A stretch of DNA of 47,514 bases from Candidatus Gastranaerophilales bacterium (lineage in GTDB: Bacteria; Cyanobacteriota; Vampirovibrionia; Gastranaerophilales; Gastranaerophilaceae), in NCBI GenBank assembly GCA_944325905.1, contig CALVBY010000004.1, positions 1 through 47,514 on the forward strand. Direction: 5' to 3'. Numbering within the stretch: position 1 is the first letter of the stretch; each line of letters begins with the position of its first letter. Made by a program: the position numbers and the translations under genes. This document shows, in pieces, positions 10,762-38,939 of this stretch. The notes below the pieces were generated by a model. It worked only from the letters and a program-made list of their open reading frames with translations. It did no database searches and was not told the origin of the DNA.

Positions 10762-10786
10762 ATATTTGTATAGGATGTAGGTGTAT

Positions 10787-11038
10787 ATGCGTTTAATCGA
10801 AAAATTAAAAGAGTTTGAGAATCAATATATGTTTATAAGATGGGCTACGGGAGGAGAATACGGTAAACTTGCGTACGTCGGTGAAGATTTCGTTGAATTT
10901 GAAATCATCGATGTTGAAACAATGGAATACAGCGAAACTGTACTTATTCATAGCCCATTGATACTTGAAGTATGCATTGGCGGTGCTGACGTTGCAAGAA
11001 TATTGGCAGAAATATCTTCCAAAATTTCTTTGGATTAA
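10787..11038 (+). CDS. Small protein of unknown function, beta-rich
   Basis: 83 aa from ATG 10787. A GTG two codons upstream is also open, but AGGA is spaced 10 nt from the ATG. The central part (GGEYGKLAYVGEDFVEFEIIDVETMEYSE, given by position only as residues 22-50) alternates hydrophobic and polar residues like a small beta-barrel of Sm/SH3 type. The C-terminal segment is helical (DVARILAEISSKI). No catalytic motif. It has its own promoter. The TIR-bounded element begins 9 nt after its stop. Confidence 0.75.
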   Translation: MRLIEKLKEFENQYMFIRWATGGEYGKLAYVGEDFVEFEIIDVETMEYSETVLIHSPLILEVCIGGADVARILAEISSKISLD

Positions 11039-11046
11039 TTTTGTAA

Positions 11047-11560
11047 TACATAAAAACTATTATCTGCCCCAATTTAAAACAATATTAAGTGCTGCGCGCA
11101 CGGCGGCAACTTTTGATGTCAAAAGTTGCACAAAAACCACCGCACGCTGCGTTCACTAATAACTTGTACGCCTCAACATAAAGGCGTGTAAACTCGCTAT
11201 AAATATAATCAATTTTTCAAGCCTCATATAATTTTACCGCTCAGACAGTACACGCCCCTGACATTTGTTTCGGCTACAGTTATTGTTCACTCCGCTATCG
11301 CGGAATTTTGTCAAACCGTACTTTCTCGCTCTCTCGCGTCTATAATAACGGTACGGGTGAAAACAATTCGACCTTAACGGAACGAGCAATCATTACATAA
11401 CAAAACAACAACTAAGCGAGCGTTGTTTGAGCGTAGCGAGTTTGCGAGCTCGGGTTGAGTTATAGTAATGATTAGCGAGTGCAGTTCCGGTCGAGAGTTT
11501 CTTGGGGTACTTTCTTGTCGGTACAAGAAAGTACTATATTCTTATAATAGTTTTTATGTA
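11047..11560. mobile_element. Intergenic element 1 with 17-bp terminal inverted repeats
   Basis: TACATAAAAACTATTAT at 11047-11063 is matched in inverse at 11544-11560. Inside there is no credible gene: the base and oligonucleotide makeup differs from the neighbours and hairpins are dense. Examples are GCAACTTTTGA/TCAAAAGTTGC (near 11106-11130), TCCGC..GCGGA near 11290, and GTACTTTCTTGT/ACAAGAAAGTAC (11507-11534, loop CGGT). There is also a long imperfect pair, AATCATTAC near 11388 with GTAATGATT near 11466. The same terminal repeat bounds element 2 at 38583-38939. No target-site duplication or transposase was found, so a MITE-like nature is an inference. Confidence 0.65.
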
Positions 11561-11567
11561 AATATTC

Positions 11568-11598
11568 AAAAAAAAAGTCACATCTTCTTTGTGACTTT
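11568..11598 (-). terminator. Leftward rho-independent terminator, possible sRNA end
   Basis: On the minus strand AAAGTCACA and TGTGACTTT (11598-11590 with 11582-11574) form a 9-bp stem with a 7-nt loop, followed by nine T (11576-11568). No minus-strand gene precedes it; the adjoining genes are rightward. It may end a small RNA transcribed leftward from 11600-11700, or insulate the neighbouring element. Confidence 0.7.
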
Positions 11599-11697
11599 GA
11601 ACAATAATCTTGGGAGGAGATTTGGGGATAGTTGTACATGCATGATAATTCAAGCATGCCGAATATGTTACATGCGTAGAACAAAAATTAATAATTC

Positions 11698-11726
11698 TTT
11701 ACATTTACTTGATTTTGTATTATAAT
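11698..11726 (+). promoter_or_regulatory. Promoter of aroQ
   Basis: TTTACA (11698-11703), 17 nt and TATAAT (11721-11726) stand 6 nt before ATG 11733, so transcription should begin at or next to the start codon. Confidence 0.7.
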
Positions 11727-11732
11727 ATATGC

Positions 11733-12188
11733 ATGAGAAAAAGCATGCGAATTTTAATAATTAACGGTGTTAACCTTAATATGCTTGGGTATCGGGAACC
11801 TGAGCAATACGGGACAAAAACACTTAAAGAACTTGAAAAAGAACTACACGCATATTCTTTTGGTCTTGGTATAGATATTGAAACCTTTCAAAGCAATGTA
11901 GAGGGTGAATTAGTAGAACGCATACAACAAGCCCGAGAACATTTTGACGGAATAATTCTAAATGCCGGTGCATACACACACACAAGTATAGCCATTCGAG
12001 ACGCGATTACAACTGCTGCATTGCCTGTTGTAGAAATACACATGTCTAATATTTATTCAAGAGAAGAGTTTCGACACAAGTCAATTATTGCTCCTGTCTG
12101 CATAGGTCAAATAACCGGTTTCAAAGTAGACAGCTACAAATTGGGTCTAAAAGGATTAGTTAATTATCTATCAAATAGAGAAAACTAA
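11733..12188 (+). CDS. aroQ: 3-dehydroquinate dehydratase, type II (AroQ)
   Basis: 151 aa from ATG 11733. It removes water from 3-dehydroquinate in the shikimate pathway. Family features in order are ILIINGVNLNMLGYREPEQYG (residue 6 on; usual form INGPNLNLLG..RP..YG), the FQSNVEGE segment, LNAGAYTHTSIAIRDA with conserved Asn and His, and VEIHMSNIYSREEFRHKS with the catalytic His. The -10 box lies only 6 nt before 11733, favouring a leaderless start there. ATG 11745 is the family-like alternative; TTG 11709 lies upstream of the -10 and is rejected. Confidence 0.93.
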   Translation: MRKSMRILIINGVNLNMLGYREPEQYGTKTLKELEKELHAYSFGLGIDIETFQSNVEGELVERIQQAREHFDGIILNAGAYTHTSIAIRDAITTAALPVVEIHMSNIYSREEFRHKSIIAPVCIGQITGFKVDSYKLGLKGLVNYLSNREN

Positions 12189-38436: not shown

Positions 38437-38582
38437 TTCAATTTCCTTCTTATTATTATCTTACTATTCGGAAAATCAACCGCCGCTTGCTGTTTTTCCT
38501 GAAACAAGGCTAAGAGGAATCGCCCGTTCCAAGACAATGGAAACACAAAAATATTCAATAATCAAGCCTACATTAACAAAGA

Positions 38583-38939
38583 TTACATAAAAACTATTAT
38601 TGTAAGCCTAATAGATGTGCAGTCGCGCCGTGATTATAGGCGCGGTGAAGGATTGCAAGCGGTTAGCTTGCAACGGCACGTATGTGCGCCCTTAATAGGG
38701 CTTTGCAATCCGAAGGATTGCCCAAAACGATTGCGTGTTTCTCTTTCTTTTGCCAGCGTTTTCTTTCTCTTTACCTCGCAAATAAAGAGAAAGAAAATGC
38801 TGGTTAGTAGCAATAACAATTATTATGTAAAGCGGTATTACTAATTATTGTGTTATTTGACTAATAATCATATAAGCGCTTTTATCAATTTTGTCACAAT
38901 ATGTTGTCCTGCCTCAGGCAGATAATAGTTTTTATGTAA
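38583..38939. mobile_element. Intergenic element 2 with 18-bp terminal inverted repeats
   Basis: TTACATAAAAACTATTAT (38583-38600) is repeated in inverse at 38922-38939. The right end with its inner GGCAG (38917-38938) is the exact inverse of the left end of element 1 (11047-11068), so the two copies lie in opposite orientation. The interior is non-coding and hairpin-dense: TTGCAAGC/GCTTGCAA (38653-38673), GCAATCC/GGATTGC (38705-38721), and a 21-bp arm pair CCAGCGTTTTC.../...GAAAATGCTGG (38753-38773 with 38783-38803, one G-U). The right end stops 5 nt before the fliI -35 box. Bases 38437-38582, between rpsP and the element, hold no feature that I can name. Confidence 0.65.

Follow-up and report, generated by a model that had tools for sequence, protein, structure and literature searches.

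The element described here lies in a stretch of 47,514 nucleotides (the window) from the 92-contig, 1.6-Mb genome of a Candidatus Gastranaerophilales bacterium (G000), with a small gene (10781-11038) on one side and, on the other, a gene which, going by its protein sequence, we take to be aroQ-like (11709-12188). The two ends of this copy (copy 1) are inverted repeats that agree in 17 of 17 nucleotides and are separated by 480 nucleotides. With up to three mismatches allowed, the window contains 10 matches to the 17-mer, four of which are exact, compared to 0.93 expected from shuffled sequences. This excess, together with genus-wide paired copies set against a reversed control, rules out a chance palindrome as the source of the ends. 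The interior is strongly self-complementary, displaying folding z scores of −6.7 and −6.6 relative to shuffled sequence for the plus and minus strands, respectively. No open reading frame of 80 or more amino acids is contained in copy 1, and one mechanically called frame (11468-11725) overlaps its end; triplex-type three-stem motifs are absent from it by the rules applied. A preliminary description of this DNA had reported the perfect ends, the same ends around a second spacer 27 kb away, a 12-bp stem with a CGGT loop and a non-coding, stem-packed interior of 0.5 kb, all of which were borne out, with the qualification that the second spacer is built of different modules (Table 1). Across the genus, the leader upstream of aroQ (window 11567-11730, AAGTCACATCTTTGTGACTTTGAACAATAATCTTGGGAGGAGATTTGGGGATAGTTGTACATGCATGATAATNCAAGCATG) hardly varies, unlike the sequence immediately preceding it; the leader is possibly an uncharacterised regulatory one.

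Table 1. Coordinates of the two elements and their parts in the window.
Feature	Position	Strand	Remark
Copy 1, whole element, 514 bp	11047-11560	.	ends matched; absent at the aroQ site in relatives
Copy 1, left terminal inverted repeat	11047-11063	+	exact 17-mer TACATAAAAACTATTAT
Module A, nested hairpins	11089-11308	-	reverse-oriented relative of module B (kinship judged by eye)
Copy 1 hairpin, 11-bp stem GCAACTTTTGA/TCAAAAGTTGC	11106-11129	.	
Module B, structured, with family-wide conservation	11367-11534	+	
Module B, mirror-like conserved tip GTTTGAGCG-TA-GCGAGTTT	11425-11443	+	REP-like hairpins here in many other copies
Hairpin with 12-bp stem and loop CGGT, 3' end of module B	11507-11534	.	
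Copy 1, right terminal inverted repeat	11544-11560	-	complement of TACATAAAAACTATTAT
Copy 2, whole element, 355 bp	38584-38938	.	between rpsP and FliI/SctN-type ATPase gene
Copy 2, ends	38584-38600 / 38922-38938		same exact 17-mer pair as copy 1
Copy 2, potential intrastrand triplex hairpin	38738-38798	+	pyrimidine-type (class IV), 15-nt stem
End module, ~109 bp spacing	38813-38938	-	between degenerate and exact end repeat

The genes on either side of copy 2 are presumably rpsP and a FliI/SctN-type ATPase gene, names that we assigned on the basis of their protein sequences. Copy 2 shares its ends with copy 1 and its interior is not a copy of the copy 1 interior; it folds with z = −7.5 relative to shuffled sequence, and its end module recurs beside other elements. 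At the rpsP site, an element is present in six of the 15 genomes that have the gene (G000, G002, G004, G011, G012 and G013) and in none of the other nine. The g1 end variants TTACATAAAATATGTTAT, found at the rpsP site, and TACATAAACAATATTAT, found on contig C2, are each matched within their own element. About 100 nucleotides upstream of rpsP (window 38440-38560, minus strand; ..TTCCTCTTAGCCTT..CAGGAA..CAAGCGGCGGTTG..) are conserved in nearly all of these 15 genomes and contain no Rfam match at the gathering threshold.

The end repeats form a family of TACATAAANANTATTATCGGAAG-like sequences. In G000, the 17-mer occurs in six exact and four one-mismatch copies (the reversed control occurs once), and partial copies of the copy 1 interior are found on contigs C2, C10, C61, C13, C32, C67 and C5. 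Exact copies were present in 12 of 59 genomes including G000, that is, in 12 of 16 genomes of its genus and in none of the 43 others, and the reversed pattern of the exact 17-mer was absent from all 59. Five genomes (G002, G009, G010, G011 and G013) carry 17-28 exact 17-mers each, many of which form facing pairs 0.3-0.7 kb apart, and the remaining ones stand alone owing to a contig that ends inside the element or to a decayed partner end. Forty-four elements with both ends were read, those with only one end found having been left out. In G002, G009 and G010, contigs often break off 60-200 bp into an element; the elements break assemblies, and the copy counts are therefore lower bounds. A 22-base query taken from the start of one type of end matched 16 stretches of named genomes, all of them in metagenome-assembled genomes (MAGs) labelled Candidatus Gastranaerophilales bacterium or, for one assembly, uncultured bacterium. 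An 18-mer is also found in 16 viral contigs, in which it is essentially unpaired and represents an unpaired background: a possible partner end with two mismatches lies 112 bp away in one contig (L164), the other 15 have no partner in range, and the module core is absent from all 16. As plasmid and phage collections gave no match in the distant mode of blastn either, a phage or plasmid origin was rejected.

The aroQ site is variably occupied. No end with up to three mismatches was found upstream of aroQ in any of the 15 relatives, 13 of which are informative (in G006 and G009 the contig stops within 0.2 kb). The left-hand gene is still located just upstream in at least five relatives (G003, G007, G008, G012 and G015), and the joined flanks of copy 1 align without interruption across the junction in G007, G008 and G012. 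The copy 1 interior is present at full length (86%) in G012, where it occupies a different position, that of the C5 element of G000. Presence/absence polymorphism at homologous sites is displayed by both the aroQ and the rpsP sites. Several element sites are common to diverged species, and our claim of mobility therefore stops short of present-day movement.

Joined-flank queries revealed no clean target duplication. The sole near-clean empty site, that of C10 in G009 and G011, may have arisen by loss: bases that adjoin the occupied site of G000 and G012 are missing from it. In most of the 44 elements a T adjoins both ends, and the letters outside TACATA are no more complementary than in shuffled pairs, on which ground a longer terminal inverted repeat (TIR) was rejected; the TA at the ends could either belong to the repeat or have been duplicated. 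The preliminary description had proposed a non-autonomous mobile or structured repeat family, against which a 17-mer scattered without pairing or an element fixed in synteny would have spoken. Within the genus the 17-mers are not scattered unpaired, and the paired copies, the empty aroQ site and the G012 interior at another position favour mobility, whereas copy 2 is partly fixed and the comparison of occupied and empty sites did not demonstrate a target duplication. That description is right about the repeat family; it foresaw neither the swapped and inverted interiors nor the family-wide structured module that we describe below.

The interiors of the 44 elements are composed of interchangeable palindromic blocks: REP-like hairpins, triplex-type hairpins and two related structured modules, of which module A was found in 19 copies among the loci examined. 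In many copies, the tip between GAGCG and AGCGAG is occupied by REP-like hairpins (such as GATCCCGCAAYAARTGCGGGATGACG). Using our own version of the triplex rules given in PMC4666352, with loops of up to 8 nucleotides, we found 34 motifs in 22.0 kb of elements; the flanks (43.8 kb) contained one, and five sets of shuffled element sequences gave 0-2. Such a motif is present in 27 of the 44 elements, including copy 2, whose class IV hairpin was found with loops of up to 12 nucleotides. Some elements that occupy the same site in neighbouring species have only a half or a third of their interiors in common (L118/L131, L121/L129).

Interiors also differ in orientation. Among 31 pairs of elements at the same site in different genomes (12 sites by our own count, with both flanks matching and orientation taken relative to the flanks; the pairs are not independent), the interior is inverted in 13, has the same orientation in 10 and is mixed or unassignable in eight, and inversion is seen in at least one comparison at eight of these sites. 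For G011 against G013, with flanks that are mostly 95-100% identical where they were compared, five pairs are inverted and three are the same. The clearest inversion is found at the ahcY-terC site, where the 548-bp element of G011 (L117) aligns over its whole length, inverted and at 96.5%, with the 623-bp element of G013 (L133), and the flanks are 98% identical. Misassembly of repeats in MAGs could create some of the inversions, yet the ends are only 17-23 bp long and the assemblies are separate.

Furthermore, element sites coincide with breaks in gene order. An element of G002 (L101) combines the left flank of one G011 element (L121) with the right flank of another (L120), and in G011 a distance of 47 kb separates these two. 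The rpsP element of G004 (L253) is joined on its far side to the terC flank, and in the same genome the terminal part of ahcY, as read by eye, is found upstream of aroQ (L065); G000 has elements at all three sites involved in these joins. The flank sequences suggest that element sites serve as chromosome breakpoints in element-mediated rearrangement, and the elements are likely hot spots of genome rearrangement.

Module B extends beyond the genus. In an alignment of 15 sequences, three of them from other genera, 14 of 51 pairs show two-sided changes. At the class level, a covariance model built for the module has matches in 104 of 289 genomes, spread over 18 of 89 genera; at the phylum level, it has matches in 97 of 386; every genome among the matches listed belongs to the same bacterial family, and copy numbers are lower bounds because fewer than about ten candidates were scored per genome. 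In 51 matches from other genera (48 distinct; 30 loci picked by us, with the alignment fitted to the model), 93.6% of cells pair, compared to 34-40% when partners are slid, and 44 of the 51 pairs show two-sided change. In other genera the module lies inside other shells, and its model often matches an adjacent inverted partner. Three elements read in genus g8 have ends such as AAATTATATTATCGGAAG, which resemble the g1 form TACATAAAAACTATTATCGGAAG; within each element the two ends show 91-92% complementarity, though the ends differ between elements.

The composition of the pairs bears on how this complementarity is maintained. The G.U share of standard pairs is 0.9%, 2.5% and 1.3% in helices 3, 4 and 7, respectively, all of which covary heavily; we therefore infer that the palindromes of module B stay complementary through processes acting on DNA, template switching being one example. 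Helices 5 and 6, with 44-51% G.U, span the mirror-like tip and are unlikely to be genuine. Outside these two, G.T exceeds A.C by 39 to 9, which hints at selection on one strand and is a caution against DNA-level matching. At E ≤ 5, none of 10 element loci gave an Rfam match that reaches gathering and the whole window yielded two tRNAs only, so a known RNA family was rejected. A literature text search for the module-core 12-mer GAGCGTAGCGAG returned occurrences only in works unrelated by title.

With a probability of about 0.6, we read copy 1 as one insertion of a genus-wide, non-coding, TIR-bounded, MITE-like family of Gastranaerophilales, in which recombination or template switching turns over, exchanges and homogenises the inner palindromes. 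The flipping could instead be the work of a dedicated invertible-DNA system, a multi-site inverton or shufflon in which a site-specific recombinase acts on the 17-23 bp ends and flips interiors within a population at about 10-30 sites per genome, perhaps controlling neighbouring genes. Such a system would fit the 13 inversions among 23 assignable same-site pairs, the five among eight between G011 and G013, and the identical ends at many sites; we nonetheless hold it to be distinctly unlikely, as both orientations between inverted repeats are known between species only (13 of 31 same-site pairs) and, given long times, orientation can become random without a dedicated enzyme. Serine recombinases (PF00239), moreover, are encoded by 11 of 16 genomes of the genus, are absent from element-bearing G000 and G009 and are present in element-free G003; a serine invertase was rejected, PF00239 being uncorrelated with copy number. 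Quite improbable, in our view, is movement of single-stranded hairpin elements by an IS200/IS605-like transposase of the HUH/Y1 class (RAYT- or TIRYT-type), with ends that are REP-like and not classical. Perfect symmetric TIRs are not known to be typical of IS200/IS605. The hairpin-rich anatomy and the presence of Y1_Tnp (PF01797) in seven of 16 genus genomes agree with this proposal, and RAYT genes flanked by long TIRs, as well as repeat families of such TIRs, are described in PMC3733652. Against it, the element-rich genomes G002 and G009 have no Y1_Tnp gene, and none of the six Y1_Tnp loci read is flanked by paired ends, two of them showing just 25-30-nucleotide matches to DNA adjoining one element; as these genes are not adjacent to elements, a RAYT mobiliser was rejected. 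An IS630-type partner was dismissed too, PF13358 being found in 0 of 16 genomes of the genus, and no transposase lies beside the unpaired ends read. Within the three families searched (PF13358, PF01797 and PF00239), no mobilising enzyme was found and none tracked copy number. Two RAYT-like Y1_Tnp genes, L261 (G011:C9) and L264 (G013:C2), are preceded by a REP-like palindrome that is repeated within the reading frame (TTGGGCAAGTATGCCCAAC; GTCGGCTTGGTAAAGCCGAC).

Module B might also be conserved as a structured non-coding RNA or mRNA element under selection. Its family-wide covariation, its conserved tip sequence and the excess of G.T over A.C argue for a role of this kind. We consider it very improbable, however, given that (i) the module occurs in multiple dispersed copies, which form tandem or inverted pairs and lie in shells that vary, (ii) both strands fold equally well, (iii) G.U is very rare in covarying helices 3, 4 and 7, and (iv) Rfam offers no match at gathering.

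Returning to the reading of a MITE-like family, we propose the following model. A transposase acting on the ends would have carried the shell to intergenic sites rich in T/A, possibly of the form TT-TA-AA and with duplication of the TA. Once inserted, the element would persist as nested palindromic DNA; its short inverted ends may recombine or switch template and thereby turn the interior over. The same events would maintain the match between the two ends and between the arms of each stem. Recombination between modules common to several copies could swap interiors and rearrange the chromosome, and REP-like hairpins would be added at the tips. The element probably has no fixed regulatory role and is mainly selfish and rearrangement-prone. 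A bolder version, which we regard as unlikely, is that the family represents a new class of mobile DNA in which the TIR shell is a docking site for reshuffled palindromes that are flipped or exchanged by a recombination activity, with stems matched by template switching and not by RNA selection, amounting to a non-coding, genome-wide shufflon at dozens of fixed intergenic sites in Gastranaerophilales.

Invertons and shufflons offer a parallel in that inverted repeats surround a segment present in both orientations; here, however, the orientations were compared between species, and no recombinase, promoter or gene cargo was identified. Bacterial MITEs, which include Correia/NEMIS, RUP, ERIC and Nezha (listed in PMC3733652), are closer: they are short and non-coding, with 15-30 bp TIRs, dispersed intergenic copies and strong secondary structure, and the present family consists likewise of short non-coding TIR elements in many dispersed copies (44 with both ends). 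It differs in being longer (0.3-0.7 kb), in having interiors that are mosaics of palindromes and not homologous between copies, in the inversion and swapping of these interiors at fixed sites, and in that neither a partner transposase of the families searched nor a target duplication was found. REP, BIME and REPtron sequences are palindromic extragenic repeats in mosaic arrays, with GTAG- and CGTC-tagged types of REPs, and the REP-like hairpins at the module tips are of the CGTC type; unlike our elements, REPs are 20-40 bp long and have no long TIR shell, and no RAYT gene adjoins the elements here (PMC3733652). The three-stem mirror/inverted motif of BoxC, PIT and TM-ECO, in its C/G-rich class II and pyrimidine class IV forms, is of the same kind as that found here, and PMC4666352 links such intrastrand triplex motifs to rearranged loci in E. 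coli, an association that our elements share; in the present family, by contrast, the motifs sit inside a TIR-bounded element, and copy 1 has none.

Our searches found no literature on repeats, transposable elements or insertion sequences in Gastranaerophilales, nor on invertible MITEs and nested palindromic elements. The MITE-like kind is already known, and the unusual part is the mosaic, flipping interior more than the insertion itself. The family provides 12 comparable natural sites at which flipping, swapping and chromosome breakage by short inverted ends and nested palindromes can be measured. Module B, whose structured DNA covaries strongly and has no Rfam match at gathering, is a marker for an entire family of gut bacteria, most of them uncultured, and the near absence of G.U intermediates would make palindrome correction by template switching testable from sequence. 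Module B also occurs in direct tandem arrays of two or three units about 280-450 bp apart (L307 in G028:C2 and L302 in G174:C5), the latter of which is bounded by GGTGCGTC-type hairpins and adjoins the RNase P RNA gene.
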